From a virus, in IMG/VR virus record IMGVR_UViG_3300030101_001522, positions 1 to 22,406 of that record: 22,406 nucleotides of DNA. One strand, 5' to 3'. Below are positions 1 through 20,549 of this stretch, one piece after another. Position 1 is the stretch's first letter, and the number at the start of each line of letters is the position of its first letter. The notes beneath the pieces are model-generated. The model saw nothing but the letters and a program-made list of their open reading frames with translations, had not been told where the DNA came from and ran no database searches. The translations under genes were made by a program, and so were the position numbers.

Positions 1-614
1 TCTGGTTTCATACGAGCAGCCTCTAATATTTTTGGCCCAACATTGTCTTCACCAAACTCTTGAACTGCTTGTCTAGCTGTAAGTTTATATTTTCTGTAAA
101 GTGTATCTATGTAACCACTTATGTTTTCGTGTATATAAAATTCTGAAATATGTAAAGTTTGAAAATGTATTGAATCTTCTTTAAAACCTTTATTGCCTTC
201 CTCAACAAACAAACAACCAGTTCCTATTGAACACAAATCTAAATATAATTCATGTACTTCTGTATTAAAATTAGTTTGATTAAAAACATCATACATTCTT
301 TTTGCAGAGTCTTCTAAATATAGCTGTACCTCTCTGTCTTGATTTAAATCATCATCATTTGTAGTTAAGAAAAACCATTGCCTTGATGGTGATGTAAGGG
401 TTCCTTGTAAACTAGCAGCAAGTAACATATTTGCTGTCATAGCTGTAGAATCAAACAAGACCTCTGTTCTTTTATCTCCACTTATTCTTTTTGTAACTAT
501 GTCAGCTTTACGTGGCATTACGTAATCTAAAATTTCTTGCCAATGATCTTCCCAAGTTCCTCTATTAGAACTCATTTCATTATATCTTTTTTTAATGTAA
601 TCGTATTTTTCCAT
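1..614 (-). CDS. T7-like head-tail connector (portal) protein, 3' truncated by window edge
   Basis: The reading frame is open from an ATG at 614 to the left edge, giving 204 N-terminal residues of a protein that is normally around 500 aa. The N-terminus (YDYIKKRYNEMSSNRGTWED), a YVMPRKADI segment, then a LFDSTAMTANMLLAASLQG block followed by LTSPSRQWFFL are hallmarks of the bacteriophage head-to-tail connecting protein family of T7-like phages. This protein forms the dodecameric ring at the packaging vertex, through which DNA enters and leaves the head. The start codon overlaps the stop of the preceding 77-aa gene as TAATG, so translation is probably coupled. It lies downstream of the terminase genes in one packaging/head operon. 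Family identification is from recognised sequence pattern, not a search. Confidence 0.9.
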   Translation of the reverse strand, partial: MEKYDYIKKRYNEMSSNRGTWEDHWQEILDYVMPRKADIVTKRISGDKRTEVLFDSTAMTANMLLAASLQGTLTSPSRQWFFLTTNDDDLNQDREVQLYLEDSAKRMYDVFNQTNFNTEVHELYLDLCSIGTGCLFVEEGNKGFKEDSIHFQTLHISEFYIHENISGYIDTLYRKYKLTARQAVQEFGEDNVGPKILEAARMKP

Positions 615-847
615 TAATAACCACCAAGTAATGTTCTTGATGTAGTAGCTTCTTCTTCAACACCTTGACCACCAGTTAAAATAGTTGATTGCATACCCAT
701 AGCTTTACCAGCTATAAGTCTTTTCTTTTCTTTTGCCAATTCTGCTTCTGCTTGTTTTTCTCTTTCAAGCAATTCTGCATCAGGACCTGGTGGTAGCTTT
801 GGCATTTTTGGTGATAATATTGGTCCTATTATTGGTATGTTACCCAT
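614..847 (-). CDS. Small phage protein with C-terminal EEATTSRTLLGGY motif
   Basis: This is a 77-aa protein. Its N-terminus is rich in Pro, Ile and Met (MGNIPIIGPILSPKMPKLPP), followed by a charged Glu/Lys helix at about residues 27-47 and a C-terminal tail containing ILTGGQGVEEEATTSRTLLGG. The same tail pattern ends the 83-aa protein encoded at 1257-1508, on the other side of the acetyltransferase gene, so the two look like paralogues that share a C-terminal docking peptide. I recognise this tail style from small proteins near portal and terminase genes of other podoviruses, but no function is known to me. The gene overlaps its upstream neighbour by 19 nt and its stop overlaps the portal start. 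Confidence 0.8.
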   Translation of the reverse strand: MGNIPIIGPILSPKMPKLPPGPDAELLEREKQAEAELAKEKKRLIAGKAMGMQSTILTGGQGVEEEATTSRTLLGGY

Positions 848-1257
848 TTACAATCCTCTTTTTGCATTCCATAAATTATAATATCATATAGTGTATCATC
901 TTTTTTTACAAAATTCTTTAATAATCCTTCTTTTTTAAAACCTACACCTTCAATTAGCTTTTGACTACGTTTCTTATTTGCAAGACAAGTAGCAGTTACT
1001 CTCTGACATTTTGCTTGATTAAAAATATAATCAAACATTAATATAATAAATCTTCTTTGTACAGCACCTGGGTACTCTGCAGCTATATGAACATAAATAT
1101 TGTTACCATCATAATTACAAAAAAGTATTACACCTACTATTTCATCTTCATTAACAAAGCCAATAGTTGTATAATCATCTACTTCAATATCTGCTCTAGG
1201 CGAAATCCATTTGTAAAATTTTTCTTTTTGCAACTGATCAAAAACTGGTTCTATCAT
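829..1257 (-). CDS. GNAT-family N-acetyltransferase
   Basis: This 142-aa protein looks like a single GNAT domain. Central beta strands (TTIGFVNEDEIVGVILF) are followed by the C-terminal signature in which NKKRSQKLIEGVGFKKEGLL matches the RimJ/RimL-like pattern N..S..l.ek.GF..EG. Such enzymes transfer acetyl from acetyl-CoA to an amine. GNAT genes next to portal genes recur in podoviruses, and the substrate there is unknown; it could be a virion or a host protein. The canonical Q/RxxGxG/A loop is poorly preserved (PGAVQRRFIILMF), so acetyl-CoA binding may be atypical. Its start overlaps the stop of the 83-aa gene upstream (TAATG). Confidence 0.75.
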   Translation of the reverse strand: MIEPVFDQLQKEKFYKWISPRADIEVDDYTTIGFVNEDEIVGVILFCNYDGNNIYVHIAAEYPGAVQRRFIILMFDYIFNQAKCQRVTATCLANKKRSQKLIEGVGFKKEGLLKNFVKKDDTLYDIIIYGMQKEDCKWVTYQ

Positions 1258-1508
1258 TATCCACCTAATAAAGTTTTGCTTGTTGTTGCTTCTTCTGTAA
1301 TACCAGATGCACCTGTAAGCATGGTTGATCCACCATACTGTGATGCAAGTCTTTGTGCGACTGGCTGTGTTGTAGTTGGCATTTTTTCCAAAAGTTGTTT
1401 TGGCTCTGGTACTTTTCTTTTCTTTTTACCAATACCTACAACACCACTTATTGCTCTGCCTACTACACTACCAATGATTGATGGTACTATTGATGCTACT
1501 GAACCCAT
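1257..1508 (-). CDS. Small phage protein with C-terminal EEATTSKTLLGG motif
   Basis: This is an 83-aa protein. Residues 1-27 are a glycine-spaced hydrophobic segment (VASIVPSIIGSVVGRAISGV) that could be a membrane-active or transmembrane helix. A KKKRKVPEPKQ basic stretch follows, and the tail STMLTGASGITEEATTSKTLL is shared with the 77-aa protein at 614-847. The N-terminal halves differ, so the shared element is the C-terminal peptide. Its position between the basic mini-proteins and the GNAT gene in the head operon suggests a virion or assembly role, which is inference only. The ATG overlaps the preceding stop as TAATG. Confidence 0.78.
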   Translation of the reverse strand: MGSVASIVPSIIGSVVGRAISGVVGIGKKKRKVPEPKQLLEKMPTTTQPVAQRLASQYGGSTMLTGASGITEEATTSKTLLGG

Positions 1509-1642
1509 TATTTTCTCCTAGCAGTCTTTGCAGCTCTTTTAAATGCTGCAGCTGTTGGACTGCCTTTTGCTCCTTTTTTTCTCATTTTTTCACCACGCTT
1601 ACGCTTGGCATGAATATTTGCATATAATCCTGGTTTTTTCAT
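1508..1642 (-). CDS. Very small basic conserved phage protein (44 aa)
   Basis: The frame runs from an ATG at 1642 to a TAA at 1508 and encodes 44 residues beginning MKKPGLYANIHAKRKRGEKM and ending in KTARRK. The protein is extremely rich in Lys and Arg. I recognise the MKKPGLYANIHAKRKR opening from small uncharacterised proteins of marine podoviruses. The start overlaps the preceding stop as ATGA and its stop overlaps the next start as TAATG, so the frame fits exactly between its neighbours. It is short enough to be missed by gene callers. Confidence 0.8.
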   Translation of the reverse strand: MKKPGLYANIHAKRKRGEKMRKKGAKGSPTAAAFKRAAKTARRK

Positions 1643-1881
1643 TTTTTCTTTTTACTTCCTTTTCTTAACAAATCAGCGTCTGCTTTTCTAGCTCCACCCT
1701 TACCTGTTACAAAACTTTTAACTCTACCCATAGCCCATTGATGTGCAGATACTTTTGGCCTAGAACCTGAAGAATAATAAGCTCCAAGGCCACGCTTATA
1801 TACAGCATCTAATTTTGATTTAGAAAATTTTGAAGAACCAGATATGCCACTATACTTACCTGTTTTCTTTTTTACTGCCAT
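1639..1881 (-). CDS. Basic conserved phage protein, DUF5824-like
   Basis: This is an 80-aa Lys/Ser-rich protein. The middle and C-terminal part, with KLDAVYKRGLGAYYSSGSRP, HQWAMGRVKSFVTGKGGARK and DADLLRKG, matches a small phage domain that I recall as DUF5824, in which an H-W-G/A-M-A/G-R-V-x-SF core is followed by a basic DxDL segment. No function is known to me. It ends in a poly-lysine tail (KKKK). A good ribosome site (AGGAG) lies upstream of the TAATG junction at 1881. The domain name is from memory and unverified. Confidence 0.75.
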   Translation of the reverse strand: MAVKKKTGKYSGISGSSKFSKSKLDAVYKRGLGAYYSSGSRPKVSAHQWAMGRVKSFVTGKGGARKADADLLRKGSKKKK

Positions 1882-2066
1882 TATCCTCTGCTCCTTTGCT
1901 TACTAATTTTGTCCATCATGGCTGGAGTAAGTTTGCCTTCTCTATAAAGTTTACGAGTCCTTTTAATTTCTGCTTCACGCTTTTTAGGATTCTTAGCACC
2001 TCTAACATATTTTGTGGGTACACCACCTTTTGTTTTAGCTACTTTTTTAAACTTTCTTTTTGCCAT
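1881..2066 (-). CDS. Basic conserved phage protein (61 aa)
   Basis: This is a 61-aa protein, highly basic over its whole length. The core VRGAKNPKKREAEIKRTRKL followed by YREGKLTPAMMDKISKQRSR is a pattern I recognise from podovirus mini-proteins: a short helix-rich domain with conserved LTPAMMD. Function is unknown. The end of the frame contains an AGGAG ribosome site serving the next gene. Its own start lies inside the 3' end of the GTG-initiated gene upstream, an overlap of 20 nt, and has no clear ribosome site, so coupled translation is likely. Confidence 0.78.
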   Translation of the reverse strand: MAKRKFKKVAKTKGGVPTKYVRGAKNPKKREAEIKRTRKLYREGKLTPAMMDKISKQRSRG

Positions 2067-2178
2067 TTCTTTTTTTATTGCCTTTTAATTTTGCAAAATC
2101 AGCACCAGTAATTTTATTTCTTGGTGATGCAACCCTAGCAATTTTTTTTTGTTTTGGTGATAATTTTTTACCTGGCAC
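2047..2178 (-). CDS. Very small basic conserved phage protein, GTG start (43 aa)
   Basis: The frame runs from a GTG at 2178 to a TAA at 2047 and encodes VPGKKLSPKQKKIARVASPR followed by a segment containing KITGADFAKLKG. I recognise the pattern P-x-K-K-L-S-x-x-Q-K-x-I-A-x-V-A-x-P-R-x-K-I-T-G-A-D-F from small proteins of marine phages. The GTG overlaps the stop of the upstream gene as TAGTG, with a GGGG run just upstream. No ATG is available in this frame near the start. Automated callers that require ATG or more than 50 aa would miss it. Confidence 0.72.
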   Translation of the reverse strand: MPGKKLSPKQKKIARVASPRNKITGADFAKLKGNKKRNGKKKV

Positions 2179-2300
2179 TACATCATCCCCTTTTTCTTTT
2201 TCATCATCATTTTCTTTTTCATGGCTGGTGTCATCTTTGTTTTAGCTTTTTTAGATGGCTTACCTCTTTTACTTCCGTATGTTCCTTTTCCCATTGGCAT
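2178..2300 (-). CDS. Lys/Met-rich mini-protein (40 aa)
   Basis: The chosen start is the ATG at 2300, giving MPMGKGTYGSKRGKPSKKAK and then a run of Lys and Met (KKKMMMKKKKGMM). An AGGAGG ribosome site at 2315-2310 sits nine bases upstream. The frame stays open further upstream, but that part lacks a ribosome site and overlaps the DUF6321-like gene. The MPMGKGTYG opening recalls other tiny phage proteins. The composition suggests nucleic-acid or membrane contact, but that is only inference. Confidence 0.7.
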   Translation of the reverse strand: MPMGKGTYGSKRGKPSKKAKTKMTPAMKKKMMMKKKKGMM

Positions 2301-2313
2301 AATAATATCCCTC

Positions 2314-2598
2314 CTATGCTCTACTAGTTTTTTTCTTCTTGTGTTTATTAGCAAAATTTCTTGCTGCTTCAACACTACCAAAACCCCATTTTTTTAGGGC
2401 TAAGGCTTTTCTGGTTGGTCGGCCCTTGCTATCTTTCATAGGTCCTTTCATACCAGCAAATCTTGCAGCGAAAGAAACACGTCTAGGGTTTGTGCCAGAC
2501 TTAACAGGAGGTTTTAGATTAGATCCTTCTTTTCTTTTAAAGTATCTTCTACCTGCTGCAGTAAGTCCACCAGTTTTACTCTTGTGTTCTTTTCTCAT
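2314..2598 (-). CDS. Basic conserved phage protein, DUF6321-like
   Basis: This 94-aa basic protein contains GGLTAAGRRYFKRKEGSNLK, then PPVKSGTNPRRVSFAARF, then a KGRPTRKALALKKWGFGS segment. This is the arrangement I recall for a phage domain called DUF6321: GGLS..GR..Y.R..GSNL..PV..G...RR.SF.AR.....G...D..G.PTR..L.LK.WG. The function is unknown. The start overlaps the terminase stop by 4 nt (ATGA), placing it directly behind the packaging ATPase. The domain name is from memory and unverified. Confidence 0.78.
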   Translation of the reverse strand: MRKEHKSKTGGLTAAGRRYFKRKEGSNLKPPVKSGTNPRRVSFAARFAGMKGPMKDSKGRPTRKALALKKWGFGSVEAARNFANKHKKKKTSRA

Positions 2599-4007
2599 GC
2601 AAAAATATTAAACTCCGATTCAGCTTGTATGTTCATAGGTTCATAGTTTTTAATTCTTGCTTTTCTTAATGACATAACTGCATAACGCATAGCAGATATA
2701 ACATCATCATGAGCTGCAACAATCTTACCATTTTTCCTATGATACATTCTAAGCTCAGTTAAAAGTTTATCTTGATTCTTAAAAATTTTCAATCTTTTTG
2801 TTTGCATTCTTGTATATAGTTCCATAATACCAGCTTCAACTGAGTTACCACCTGAACCTTCTTTTTGTCCTTGTGCTGGTGGGTTACTAAAATGTTCTCT
2901 TGTCATGTTTACACCCTCTGCTCTGTATTGCTCAGTAAGAGATTTACCAGAACCTTTGTCAGCTTGTCTGCCGTCCATAGGCCAGATCACAGGTATCCAG
3001 TTACCTCTTGATTTTATTGCACTCGCATGGATTGGCACAGCCTCTTGTCTAAGAGCATAGCTATCATAAACATACGCTACATCAGCATCTCTATCCCATG
3101 CAATCCATACGGCAGCAGTTGGGTGATCCCATCCAAAATCTAGCCCACATATTCTTGTCCAATGATCTGGTATATCTATTGGTTCACAAACTATTTCATC
3201 TTCTGCCACAGGAAATACAAGACCAGAACCTATTTGTGGTACACCTTGCTCACGCATCTTTCTTTCGTGTGGTGGTAACGCAGCAAGTATTTGCTCTCTT
3301 ATATTTGATGTCATATGAGGTGCATCATCCCAACCAGCTTGTAACAGTGCTTGGCCAGGTCTAAGGTCATTCATAAACTGTGCTACTGTTTCTGTCATGC
3401 CAGACTCAGGTGTAAATGTCATATACACTATGCCACCTCTGTCTGCAGTTCTTGTAAGTGCTTGAGTATATATTGAGGTTGGTGGTTCTTCATCTAACCA
3501 GACTACATCTACAGCTTCACCCATCCATTTTTCTTTACCCATTTCATATGCTTTGAATGCAAGTCTTGACCACCCACCACTAACGTGCTTGATAACTAAG
3601 CTGTTCATAGCATTTGGCACACCTGGTTTTCTAGTTGTATCTCCTATATCATCAAGTGGTATAGATCCTGTACCTTTAGCACTAGGATCATCTGGTTGAC
3701 CTACAAGTTCTTTCTGACATACATCTCTAGTAGTTTCATTTGACACACCACCTACCCAGGCCCTTATAGGTTTATCAAACTTCTTGCCTTTCCACCAGTC
3801 AGGATATTTGCCAGTTAAATGATATGCCATTTCCATAGCACCACAGAAGGATTTTCCTATCCTATTACCAGCCATAAGTAATCTTTGAGATGCTATGGTA
3901 TTGTGAAAGTTTATTTGATACTCATATGGTTTGTAATGTTTAAGTGTATTAGTCGCTTTTCTTTTCTCTAATTCTTTAGCTATTTCTACTGCTCTTTCTA
4001 AACTCAT
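2595..4007 (-). CDS. terL: Terminase large subunit, T7-like
   Basis: This is a 470-aa packaging motor ATPase with a C-terminal nuclease, which docks on the portal, pumps DNA into the prohead and cuts concatemers. Visible motifs are Walker A GNRIGKS at residues 47-53, Walker B VDVVWLDEE at 166-174, the coupling motif MTFTP at 196-200, and the RNase H-like nuclease start GLDFGWDHPTA with D290. A late acidic pair sits at 434-435 in AHDDVISAMRYA. Length and the GNRIGK form of Walker A match terminases of T7-like and related podoviruses. The start overlaps the methyltransferase stop by 4 nt. All catalytic residues I can identify are intact. Confidence 0.95.
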   Translation of the reverse strand: MSLERAVEIAKELEKRKATNTLKHYKPYEYQINFHNTIASQRLLMAGNRIGKSFCGAMEMAYHLTGKYPDWWKGKKFDKPIRAWVGGVSNETTRDVCQKELVGQPDDPSAKGTGSIPLDDIGDTTRKPGVPNAMNSLVIKHVSGGWSRLAFKAYEMGKEKWMGEAVDVVWLDEEPPTSIYTQALTRTADRGGIVYMTFTPESGMTETVAQFMNDLRPGQALLQAGWDDAPHMTSNIREQILAALPPHERKMREQGVPQIGSGLVFPVAEDEIVCEPIDIPDHWTRICGLDFGWDHPTAAVWIAWDRDADVAYVYDSYALRQEAVPIHASAIKSRGNWIPVIWPMDGRQADKGSGKSLTEQYRAEGVNMTREHFSNPPAQGQKEGSGGNSVEAGIMELYTRMQTKRLKIFKNQDKLLTELRMYHRKNGKIVAAHDDVISAMRYAVMSLRKARIKNYEPMNIQAESEFNIFA

Positions 4008-4552
4008 ACTTCATTACCCCAAACATCCCACCCCTCTCGTTTCTGACGAGCAAAAATGTCTATACGATCATCACCTAATGGTTCTATATAATTATAAAAC
4101 TTATTTGGTTTTTGTGAATGTTTAATGTTTTCTGCTTGAAAAACTAATGGTATTAATTTTCTCTTTGGCCATAGTGGTGGTTTTGGTCCATTGTAACCAA
4201 TAGCTATAAACTCTGCGTTCCATCTATAACCATACAAAGGCATACCTGCAGATTTACCATAAGTTTTTTCCCACACACTCATTACAAGATATTTAAATCC
4301 CCAATTTTCTAAAATATTTTTAACATCAAAAATGTACCTTTGAGTAGTCCACAAAAAAATCCATGCTTGATCTTTAGCTACATCTTTGATATTTAGTTGA
4401 CTTATAAGTTCTACACTTTCGACATGATTTTTACCCATAACTTTATAAGGCATATTTTTTTGATTAGCTCTTGTTTTGTGAACTGCTGTTTTTAACCACC
4501 AAGGTGGATCAACAACTATTACATCATATTTCTTTTTTGGCAGATTTAGCAT
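4004..4552 (-). CDS. MT-A70 family adenine-N6 DNA methyltransferase
   Basis: This 182-aa protein carries the catalytic motif IV DPPW in VIVVDPPWWL at residues 15-18, followed by the MT-A70 landmarks WIFLWTTQRY, VMSVWEKT and the HSQKPNKFY segment that corresponds to the AdoMet-binding H-S-x-K-P motif. Such enzymes methylate adenine at N6 in DNA (phage and bacterial members) or RNA (eukaryotic members). It lies between the zinc-ribbon gene and terL, in the packaging operon rather than in the replication modules, so it could modify DNA just before packaging; that is inference. Its start lies inside the upstream gene, a 29-nt overlap. Confidence 0.88.
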   Translation of the reverse strand: MLNLPKKKYDVIVVDPPWWLKTAVHKTRANQKNMPYKVMGKNHVESVELISQLNIKDVAKDQAWIFLWTTQRYIFDVKNILENWGFKYLVMSVWEKTYGKSAGMPLYGYRWNAEFIAIGYNGPKPPLWPKRKLIPLVFQAENIKHSQKPNKFYNYIEPLGDDRIDIFARQKREGWDVWGNEV

Positions 4553-4742
4553 CTATAAACTCTCTTAGTTCTGCTGGAGTATATAAACAATGATTCCAGC
4601 AGTAAACATAGTCTATTTCATAATCATCACTTTCTGATGTATTTATTAAATCAAGAGCATAGCCACAACAAGGGCAGTTGTAAAACCCCTCGTCATCACT
4701 TGAATTGTTATGTTGCCAGTTTTCTAGTAGGTATTCGTCCAT
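4524..4742 (-). CDS. Small zinc-ribbon-like protein
   Basis: This is a 72-aa acidic protein. The cysteines fall in two clusters, CPCC at residues 23-26 and CWNHC at 48-52, consistent with one zinc-binding ribbon. The N-terminus is rich in Asn and Asp, and the C-terminus is helical. It sits between the two terminase subunit genes together with the MT-A70 gene, and the start overlaps the small terminase stop as TAATG. It could help DNA recognition in packaging or modification, but I do not recognise a specific family. Confidence 0.7.
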   Translation of the reverse strand: MDEYLLENWQHNNSSDDEGFYNCPCCGYALDLINTSESDDYEIDYVYCWNHCLYTPAELREFIDAKSAKKEI

Positions 4743-5155
4743 TAATTTAGATCATCCTTGTCAGGAGATGCTATTTTGATTACAGACAATAAACGACCAA
4801 GTTCTTCTTGTAATTCTTCATCTGTTTTTTTGTTTGTTACATCTTCAATTTTGTTAACTGTTTGATAACCTGTCCTGTCAAGCAATGAATTGATAGCACC
4901 TAGCTTTACTGACTGTGTAGTTTTATCATCTTCTACCAGTTTTATAAGTTTATCTATAGCCAAAGGTGCAGCACTTGCCATTAACTTTCTAGTATGTTCT
5001 GTTATTTCATTAGATAGTTTGTTTTTTAGCTCATATCCCTGCTGTTCTGCAGTTTTTTCTGAATATCCTGCTTTTATTGCAGACGCTTTTGCATTACCTG
5101 TTTGAGAATAGTGTTCTATAAACGCTTTTTGCTTTTCAGTTAGTTGTTTGTACAT
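4742..5155 (-). CDS. terS: Terminase small subunit
   Basis: This is a 137-aa protein if started at the ATG at 5155. The N-terminal LTEKQKAFIEHYSQTGNAKA followed by SAIKAGYSEKTAEQQGYEL is the typical helix-turn-helix of the Terminase_2 family of small subunits, which recognise phage DNA and recruit the large subunit. A C-terminal helical oligomerisation segment follows. The frame extends upstream to a TTG at 5194, but the family alignment starts at MYKQLTEKQ, so ATG 5155 is preferred. There is no Shine-Dalgarno in front of it. It is the first gene of the minus-strand late operon. Confidence 0.9.
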   Translation of the reverse strand: MYKQLTEKQKAFIEHYSQTGNAKASAIKAGYSEKTAEQQGYELKNKLSNEITEHTRKLMASAAPLAIDKLIKLVEDDKTTQSVKLGAINSLLDRTGYQTVNKIEDVTNKKTDEELQEELGRLLSVIKIASPDKDDLN

Positions 5156-5165
5156 TGTTTTTACT

Positions 5166-5194
5166 ACTATAACACTTTTATCTTGTATATACAA
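5166..5194 (-). promoter_or_regulatory. Candidate promoter with palindrome in front of terS
   Basis: A perfect 12-bp palindrome TTGTATATACAA occupies 5183-5194. Reading the minus strand, its second half provides a weak -35 TTGTAT (5194-5189), separated by 17 bp from TATAGT (5171-5166). Transcription would then begin only a few bases before the terS ATG, which fits the absence of a ribosome site. An alternative -35 TTTACA lies at 5212-5207 but its spacing to a -10 is short. This is a candidate late promoter with an overlapping operator. Confidence 0.35.
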
Positions 5195-14423: not shown

Positions 14424-14909
14424 ATGGTAGTAAAAAGATACAACAAACCTCTAAGAGAAGTAAGGCCAGATGAGAATAAATTTTATCAAGGAAACGATAA
14501 AGATAAAAAACATTATTGGTTAACACCTCCTGAAATTTACATTCCTCTTGATCAAGAATTTAATTTTGATTTTGATCCTTGTCCTTATCCTCTACCAGAA
14601 GGATTTGATGGATTAACCTGTGAGTGGGGTAAATCTAATTATGTAAACCCCCCTTTTGGATCAATTATTCATGAAGGCAAAAAGAAAGGACCAACAGCAT
14701 GGGCAAGAAAGGCTATGGCTGAAGCTGATAAAGGAAAAGATGTTGTGTTTTTATATCCTATAGATAAATGGATATTAATGTTGCTAGAGTATGGTGCTAA
14801 AGTTCGTAACTTAAAAGATATTAAATGGTTGGCAACAGAAGATAATACTCCAGGCAAAGGCCTAGGTAGGCACATAGCTTGTTTTGTTTTAAAAGGAAAA
14901 ATAGATTGA
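14424..14909 (+). CDS. Dam-family phage DNA N6-adenine methyltransferase
   Basis: This is a 161-aa protein of the phage DNA N6-adenine methyltransferase family (PF05869 type). YWLTPPEIYIPLDQEFNFDF is followed by DPCP at 51-54 and by the catalytic NPPF at residues 75-78 in SNYVNPPFGS. It probably methylates adenine in phage DNA; the recognition site is unknown. No ribosome site is visible, and it starts two bases after the exonuclease stop, so translation is probably coupled. The stop codon lies in the left arm of the inverted repeat at 14901-14952. Confidence 0.85.
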   Translation: MVVKRYNKPLREVRPDENKFYQGNDKDKKHYWLTPPEIYIPLDQEFNFDFDPCPYPLPEGFDGLTCEWGKSNYVNPPFGSIIHEGKKKGPTAWARKAMAEADKGKDVVFLYPIDKWILMLLEYGAKVRNLKDIKWLATEDNTPGKGLGRHIACFVLKGKID

Positions 14910-16382: not shown

Positions 16383-16535
16383 TTACCTACCTATTTTTTT
16401 CTGTGTTGCTTTGTGTGCTGCAGTAAAACTTTTACCAGCTCTCATCATTTTTTTCATCATAGTCATATGTTTTGTTGTATGATGTTTGCTATGTTTTTTT
16501 AGTGTAGCTTTTTGCCTGTCTGTTAATGCTGCCAT
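16383..16535 (-). CDS. Very small basic conserved phage protein (50 aa)
   Basis: The frame from ATG 16535 to TAA 16383 encodes 50 residues: MAALTDRQKATLKKHSKHHT, a Met/Lys-rich middle, and GKSFTAAHKATQKKIGR. I recognise this L-T-x-x-Q-x-x-x-L-K-x-H-S-x-H-H-T...M.x.M...M-x-x-G-x-[ST]-F-x-x-A-H-x-x-A pattern from small marine-phage proteins. The start overlaps the preceding stop as TAATG. Function is unknown. Confidence 0.78.
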   Translation of the reverse strand: MAALTDRQKATLKKHSKHHTTKHMTMMKKMMRAGKSFTAAHKATQKKIGR

Positions 16536-19273: not shown

Positions 19274-19812
19274 TAGTTTGTTCTCCTATATATATAAAAT
19301 TCATATCCTTCGATATTATATAGTGTACCTGTGTCTGTAAAACCAAGCGAGTTTTTACACCATGCTTGTACTAAAACATTGGATTTAGGAGGTTCACACA
19401 GGGTTATAGGTATATTCCAACTATCTCTAAACCAGTTCATAAGGTTAATAGTGGCTTCCGTATGTGCTGTGCCAGAGTTATCTCCTGTTACACAAGCTAT
19501 AGATACTGCATCTACATCTAGTGTATATTCTGTTCCTTTAAAATTTTCTCCAGCTCTGTGTATACTGTAATGCCATACCATAGGGATAGATGAATCATAG
19601 ATTATTTTTTCTTTATTAAGTATGTCTGTGTCTGTTACTCCCTTAAAATAACTAACTGACGTAAATAAATCATATGCTGCTTGTGCTTCGTCTGTTGTCA
19701 TATGATGTGGCTCGTTAGTTGTCATATCTATATAGTTACTAGGCACAGGGTTAGCATCACTATTTATTACTTTTATTATTACTCCATTTTCAGTTACTGC
19801 ATATTTTTTCAT
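19273..19812 (-). CDS. Hypothetical protein downstream of the tail fibre genes (179 aa)
   Basis: This is a 179-aa protein. The first 30 residues (MKKYAVTENGVIIKVINSDA) resemble the short beta-hairpin openings of tail fibre assembly or fibre-associated proteins; the rest is mixed alpha/beta with three cysteines and a C-terminal YEFYIYRRT strand. It follows the glycine-rich adhesin gene by a TAATG junction, so a role in fibre assembly or as a tip protein is plausible but unproven. I do not recognise the family. Confidence 0.7.
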   Translation of the reverse strand: MKKYAVTENGVIIKVINSDANPVPSNYIDMTTNEPHHMTTDEAQAAYDLFTSVSYFKGVTDTDILNKEKIIYDSSIPMVWHYSIHRAGENFKGTEYTLDVDAVSIACVTGDNSGTAHTEATINLMNWFRDSWNIPITLCEPPKSNVLVQAWCKNSLGFTDTGTLYNIEGYEFYIYRRTN

Positions 19813-20549
19813 TAATCAATGTACTCCCATTCAAAAACAATTAAACCACTGCCACCAGCAGAACCATTAGCACCACCATTGCCATTACCACCTGAGCCAC
19901 CTACTCCAACACTATAAACATAATTAGCACCTTCAGCAGTAAAATTAGTAAAACTAAATTTTATGGCAGCACTACCACCGCCACCAGCTCCACCTCTACC
20001 TGAGCCATTTCCAGCACCACCTGCTCCACCATTACCTACCCCTGCTTGATATACTGATTCTGTATTTCTTGCACAAACTCCACCAGCTTCCCCAGTTGAG
20101 TCTGTGTCCATATTACTTCCAGCATTACCTGCTACATTATAAACTTGGTTGTTTCCAGTTCCAGTGCCTCCAGCAGCTCCACCACCATTACCATTTCCTG
20201 TAGCATTACCTTTTCTACCAAAGCCATTACCTAAAGATAAATTTATACTTACTCCAGTTCCATCCGTACTACCAGTTACAGTACATGAAGTACCACTACC
20301 ATCTGTACCTGCACTACCATTTCTATGACCTGATTTAACATCAAATGAACCACCACCTTGTCCACCACCACCACCAGCCCACATATAAATATTTAAAAAG
20401 TTATAAAATTTACCTGCCTGAGTGTTAAAAGTAGCGTTAGTACCTGATGTAAATGAAGAGCTACCTGTTACTAGAACAATAGCTGTTGCTGCTCTTTGTC
20501 CAAAAGCATTAGCACTTGCTTGTCCTATTGTTGTAATTATTGGTGCCAT
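19812..20549 (-). CDS. Glycine-rich tail fibre tip/adhesin-like protein (245 aa)
   Basis: This is a 245-aa protein. After an N-terminal segment (MAPIITTIGQASANAFGQRA) and a beta-strand region, most of the protein consists of glycine-rich blocks (for example MWAGGGGGQGGGSFD and GAGNGSGRGGAGGGGSA), ending in GSAGGSGLIVFEWEYID. This composition and the GSGLIVF ending match glycine-rich host-recognition proteins such as the gp38-type adhesins, which form polyglycine II helix bundles with variable loops at the tip of a fibre. It lies directly behind the T7-like tail fibre gene (TAATG), in the position of a fibre tip protein. Confidence 0.8.
   Translation of the reverse strand: MAPIITTIGQASANAFGQRAATAIVLVTGSSSFTSGTNATFNTQAGKFYNFLNIYMWAGGGGGQGGGSFDVKSGHRNGSAGTDGSGTSCTVTGSTDGTGVSINLSLGNGFGRKGNATGNGNGGGAAGGTGTGNNQVYNVAGNAGSNMDTDSTGEAGGVCARNTESVYQAGVGNGGAGGAGNGSGRGGAGGGGSAAIKFSFTNFTAEGANYVYSVGVGGSGGNGNGGANGSAGGSGLIVFEWEYID

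Follow-up and report, generated by a model that had tools for sequence, protein, structure and literature searches.

Directly after the large terminase gene of the virus record IMGVR_UViG_3300030101_001522 (22,406 nt, the whole of which was analysed and is here called the window), six very small genes for strongly basic proteins follow each other at positions 1508-2598, and the question is what a phage does with such a set. On the minus strand, the order is terL (2595..4007; matches to Pfam Terminase_6N and 6C), A94 (2314..2598; a DUF6321 protein), B40 (2178..2300; GTYG family), C43 (2047..2178; ITGADF family, with a GTG start), D61 (1881..2066; PKYxxG family), E80 (1639..1881; a DUF5824 protein), and F44 (1508..1642; YANIHAKRKR family), the number in each name being the protein length in amino acids. 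The minus strand of the window has a late-type gene order. All 6 ORFs named in a preliminary description of this DNA were found on this strand with the lengths given there (94, 40, 43, 61, 80, and 44 aa), and the proteins are very basic and Lys/Arg-rich, as had been claimed, with a K+R content of 28% to 39%, a pI of 10.7 to 12.0, and a net charge of +15 to +25, the value for A94 being +25. The genes had also been called overlapping, which holds for most neighbours (by 1 to 20 bases) but not for A94 and B40, which are separated by a gap of 13 bases. Their placing between terL and an acetyltransferase gene was correct at the first end, where the start region of A94 overlaps the terL stop, but at the other end the gene for a much less basic small late protein of 83 aa, G83 (1257..1508, minus strand), intervenes before the GNAT acetyltransferase gene (829..1257, minus strand; phrog_4470, 9.5e-29). 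The latter is followed by H77 and by a frame cut by the window end, a putative portal gene judging by where it lies relative to the head-tail connector gene of Pelagibacter phage Baldr. Ribosome-binding-like sequences were clear before B40 and E80 and weak or absent before the other 4 genes. It was also noted that an MT-A70 adenine methyltransferase gene (4004-4552, minus strand) is located between the genes for the small and the large terminase, and that a second methyltransferase-like gene (phrog_111) is present at 14424-14909 on the plus strand.

Lysine-rich frames may arise by chance in AT-rich DNA with many AAA codons, and the small genes could be frames of this kind. However, the 6 ORFs of at least 40 aa cover 99% of positions 1508-2598, and such dense packing was absent from 500 sequences randomised with the dinucleotide composition kept, in which the coverage had a mean of 14% and a maximum of 53%, with at most 4 ORFs of 40 aa. 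Furthermore, all 6 proteins have relatives. Residues 5-71 of A94 matched the Pfam family PF19846 (DUF6321) over positions 1-72 of the 72 in the profile with 90.7 bits (cut-off 28.5), and residues 13-70 of E80 matched PF19141 (DUF5824) with 47 bits (cut-off 25), the match covering positions 63-123 of 127 and thereby only the C-terminal half of the profile. F44 was assigned to phrog_16028 (E 6.9e-19, profile positions 3-49 of 50) and D61 matched phrog_38321 weakly, whereas B40 and C43 had no library match, yet clear relatives among viral contigs. Relatives of DUF6321 were present in about 520 phage isolate records, mostly from cyanophages. Translated BLAST with F44 or D61 alone matched no phage record, probably due to composition filtering and short length, since the profiles do find relatives.

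Median pairwise dN/dS values (Nei-Gojobori), which are descriptive and do not amount to a likelihood test because the sequences are related, were 0.17 for A, 0.05 for D, and 0.12 for E within the terL lineage, in which the values were 0.12 for TerL and 0.24 for GNAT. The values were 0.19 to 0.20 for F and 0.33 to 0.34 for B, each within one subfamily, and 0.29 for C over all loci. All 6 genes behave as genes under purifying selection (0.05 to 0.34), in agreement with the earlier view that they are conserved rather than random. With families conserved over hundreds of loci and dN/dS values well below 1, the homology and dN/dS results refute an origin as chance frames, to which we attach next to no probability. 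The same families were also identified in T4-like and siphovirus-like phages, so the patterns ascribed in the preliminary description to marine podoviruses are indeed conserved but not confined to that group. That the set has no assigned role is borne out by the 2 named families, both of which are Pfam domains of unknown function and neither of which was named in any paper in the literature searched.

To place the 6 genes among their relatives, 445 loci were gathered among the matches listed, mostly from viral contigs scanned with TerL, A94, E80, and distant relatives. All small basic ORFs of these loci were clustered, and 16 recurring families were profiled, which included the 6 families of the window as well as HHSxHM, RFG, KWRT, GNYTKP, QAVAIALS, YPSAY, DUF5872, and others. 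The 6 genes are part of a larger pool, of at least 14 families of tiny basic proteins, whose genes are clustered on one strand; in all 839 pairs of close neighbours across the 445 loci, the two genes shared a strand. The order of the families in these loci is shuffled, except that the D gene directly precedes the E gene in 169 loci, none of which was picked by D. Since A, E, or TerL served to select the loci, the remaining co-occurrence counts do not reflect natural frequencies; among the same 445 loci, the B family profile matched 135 and the C family 52.

A further member of the pool, the HHSxHM protein H50 (16383..16535, minus strand, 50 aa; phrog_31838, 1.4e-8), is encoded in the window away from the six. 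Its gene directly follows that for a protein of 453 aa with a signal-like start and an acidic middle, for which no Pfam or PHROG match was obtained. There was likewise no Pfam or PHROG match for a very glycine-rich protein of 245 aa (19812-20549, minus strand), which is encoded beside a tail-fibre-like gene and could be a receptor-binding tip. Single modules are found in marine phages of the podovirus-like and siphovirus-like kinds, and the 99.9 kb read of the siphovirus P-SS2, for which a virion proteome is published, contained none of these families. The pelagiphage myovirus HTVC008M contains F, D-like, E, and I modules in a short gene run (positions 192-3560 of the piece read), where a cytidylyltransferase domain precedes the D-like (weak) and E modules in a fusion. 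Pfam already lists two of the families as DUFs; the exchangeable set drawn from a pool, with its connection to virion proteins, was not found in the literature searched.

Several observations indicate that the genes move between phages. The A94 protein was 84% identical to a protein of the Methylophilales phage MEP401, although no significant match was obtained between the terminases of MEP401 and the window. The nearest isolate by terminase is Baldr (79%), in which terL is accompanied by a G83-like gene, the GNAT gene, an H77-like gene, a single basic protein of the YENIN type, and the connector gene, whereas A to E are absent. The high identity of A94 in a phage with an unrelated terminase, together with the lack of the cassette in Baldr, shows that the cassette has been exchanged as a set between unrelated phages. 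Among the matches listed, 75 relatives had both terL and the GNAT gene in view, and cassette members were located between them in 19 of these and in none of the remaining 56, so heads of this type do not depend on the cassette. The E80 relatives with an adjoining D gene were also present in contigs assigned to Alphaproteobacteria, SAR116, Opitutae, and Flavobacteriaceae.

The adjacency in the window of lysine-rich proteins and an acetyltransferase gene raised the idea that the enzyme acetylates the small proteins and tunes their binding to DNA, like a pair of a small histone and its acetyltransferase. However, the enzyme is kept in place in Baldr and, among the matches listed, in the 56 relatives without the cluster, and other phages have the cassette without an annotated acetyltransferase next to it. 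We reject this partnership, which is very improbable, because the acetyltransferase persists where the cassette is missing; the G83 gene is also present in relatives without the cluster.

The preliminary description had linked the six to the head, as DNA-condensing, prohead assembly, or internal ejected proteins, and this link was examined by scanning the nearest large genes beside the cassettes against PHROGs. For the cassettes with an A gene, terL represented 15 of 55 neighbours. The 60 neighbours in cyanopodovirus-like, MED4-184-like, and HTVC111P-like loci included 10 scaffold genes, 5 capsid genes, and 9 head morphogenesis or minor head genes, the last count being equal to the number of MED4-184-like upstream genes in the list, with the members unnamed in the output. 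The DUF6321 gene is located between the scaffold and capsid genes in HTVC200P, S-CBP4, and S-TIP37 (with psbA between them in the last two), after the capsid gene in P-SCSP1o, and shortly before terL in MEP401, and a YANI protein directly follows DUF6321 in 3 of the 3 cyanopodoviruses read. The neighbours of the E-cassettes were mixed, with endolysin or holin genes often among them, and terL, portal, and head morphogenesis genes surround E in bacterial single-cell and metagenome contigs. The cassette of the window lies by terL and the putative portal gene, which places it in the head and packaging module; the exception to such placing is found in the HTVC111P-like phages, and in HTVC111P itself the D-E pair follows a lysozyme gene.

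The E80 protein is a clear member of DUF5824 and stands alone after D61, whereas the same domain is part of larger proteins elsewhere, as in HTVC008M, where it ends the cytidylyltransferase-like protein, and in CRP-823, where it ends a 238 aa protein encoded between the portal and capsid genes. The CRP-823 gene (3554-4270 of the piece read) is annotated as a major capsid protein and lies between the portal gene and a second gene so named; the gene with the DUF5824-like end probably does not code for a capsid protein. The DUF6321 proteins of cyanophages and pelagiphages resemble A94 in their basic composition and in their placing by capsid, scaffold, or terminase genes. In T4-like cyanophages, however, DUF6321 is located at or near the C-terminal end of a larger protein (165 to 517 aa in the cases read) encoded between terS and terL, whereas A94 stands alone beside terL.

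These larger relatives provide the link to the virion. In S-CREM2, DUF6321 covers positions 415-488 of ORF137 (E 3.5e-10), the gene for which is located between terS and terL, and the published proteome of virions purified with CsCl includes ORF137, at 4.1% coverage from 4 unique peptides (PMC10665884), although these peptides may lie outside its DUF6321 part. The 517 aa ORF29 protein of S-SCSM1, with DUF6321 at 445-515 and its gene likewise between terS and terL, is labelled a virion protein, which we take to reflect the mass spectrometry in which 45 virion proteins of this phage were found (PMC9602691). In contrast, the DUF6321 protein ORF192 of S-SZBM1 is not in the published virion list (PMC9146016). 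The counterpart in Syn33 is annotated as hypothetical, although the proteomes of S-SM1, S-PM2, and Syn9 had been used to mark structural proteins. Proteins rich in Lys and Arg yield few usable tryptic peptides, and trypsin is ill suited to them, so the absence in S-SZBM1 and Syn33 counts only in part. In the cryo-EM paper on P-SCSP1u, no mention of the DUF6321 and YANI proteins of this phage was found under the terms searched. The proposed head link is upheld by the terL, scaffold, capsid, and head morphogenesis neighbours and, for DUF6321, by the large relatives reported in or labelled as part of virions.

For E, any link to the virion is indirect and runs through the fusion in HTVC008M, as cytidylyltransferase-like proteins have been reported in virions of S-SM1, S-SZBM1 (PMC9146016), S-CREM2 (PMC10665884), and S-SCSM1 (PMC9602691). 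E80 was not accepted as a proven virion protein on this ground, as the virion cytidylyltransferase of S-SZBM1 has no visible DUF5824 part. We also noted that the basic, virion-detected ORF160 of S-CREM2 (28343-29236 of the piece read) contains DUF5872-like and WPSAYAS motifs by eye, neither of which was called by Pfam.

The main rival is that the proteins act at the time of assembly and stay in the cell, where they would, for example, coat the replicated DNA late in infection or help the terminase, portal, or scaffold, and would not remain in the particle. The location of the cassettes beside terL, scaffold, and head genes is in line with this possibility, as are the dispensability of the cassette in relatives and the DUF6321 proteins that are missing from the virion list of S-SZBM1 and not marked as structural in Syn33, but the large DUF6321 proteins reported in the virions of S-CREM2 and labelled as virion protein in S-SCSM1 argue against it. 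We consider such a role possible, at well under even odds.

The modelled structures bear on how the proteins might act. The AlphaFold model of A94 (pLDDT 90.4) consists of 4 short helices and a flexible basic tail, so the prediction for this protein is a well-folded domain of helices and not a tail of the protamine type, and the invariant residues include the basic R17, K29, R39, R46, and R63 as well as W71. No solved structure was matched in the structure searches with A94, and the confident matches among viral models were other DUF6321 proteins only. The E80 model (pLDDT 75.7) has 2 main helices and gave only noise-level matches, and no DNA-binding fold was recognised in either protein. None of the six matched the HU, H-NS, or histone families of Pfam at E values up to 1, nor the small-subunit families of terminases; A94 was also rejected as a small terminase, for which a gene with a Terminase_2 match is already present at 4742-5194 on the minus strand. 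The B family has an AT-hook-like GRP core amid lysines in 58 of 59 GTYG-type members, and its unique members contain RGRP in 18 and GRP in 60 of 88 cases, but the copy in the window reads RGKP rather than RGRP, with no match to the Pfam AT-hook.

Such a basic composition is compatible with RNA as well as with DNA, and the proteins could instead be host-directed or RNA-binding effectors, peptides made late or ejected whose targets would be host RNA, ribosomes, or the nucleoid. Ribosomal proteins and the omega subunit of RNA polymerase are among the structural matches of E80, and some cassettes adjoin lysis genes. However, those matches are not significant, and the genes are located with the head genes rather than the early genes, and we regard effectors of this type as unlikely.

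Similar proteins are known from other phages. The internal proteins IPI-IPIII of T4 are small and basic, are packed in the head with the DNA, and vary between relatives; they resemble the cassette proteins in size and charge, whereas the capsid-targeting sequence removed by the prohead protease is a feature of the T4 proteins. No prohead protease gene was found within the window. T7 codes small ejected head proteins late and near its portal gene, gp6.7 and gp7.3, which travel with the particle and are tiny and late like the cassette proteins, but T7 has one or two of them rather than an exchangeable set of six. The 2 genes flanking the acetyltransferase gene in the window (614-847 and 1257-1508, minus strand) are also near the putative portal gene; both match phrog_831, their products have a common C-terminal motif (GGST/QST-LTG--G--EEATTS-TLLGG), and they are fast-evolving, with dN/dS values of 0.47 to 0.69.

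Because DUF6321 relatives were found in purified particles, we favour the six as probable head proteins that bind packaged DNA, and give a probability of about one half to the reading that they are virion-internal DNA-binding proteins of the head module. The strong positive charge, the GRP core of the B family, the folded model of A94, and the clustering, transfer, and selection of the genes also speak for this reading. On this view the cassette is mobile, and its tiny cationic proteins, of which at least A94 is well folded according to its model, would be expressed together with the head and packaging genes. We infer that the window's own proteins bind DNA, which would occur through their charge and small helical modules, and that they are packaged, entering the head either together with the genome or while the prohead is assembled. 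They would then persist in the particle as minor internal proteins that help to neutralise and compact the DNA, and some of them may pass with the DNA into the next cell. More tentatively, the pool of at least 14 cationic modules might be a kind of phage chromatin, from which each phage takes a handful as an exchangeable cassette next to its head genes and packs them with its genome, tuning the compaction or protection of the DNA in the head independently of the capsid type, and from which T4-like phages string some modules together; we hold this wider proposal to be speculative.

The modules are among the common genes of marine phages that have no assigned function, and the proposal is directly testable in culturable phages. 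If it is true, DNA-binding head proteins that are exchanged between phages of SAR11, Methylophilales, cyanobacteria, and others would be a general feature of phage particles in the ocean.
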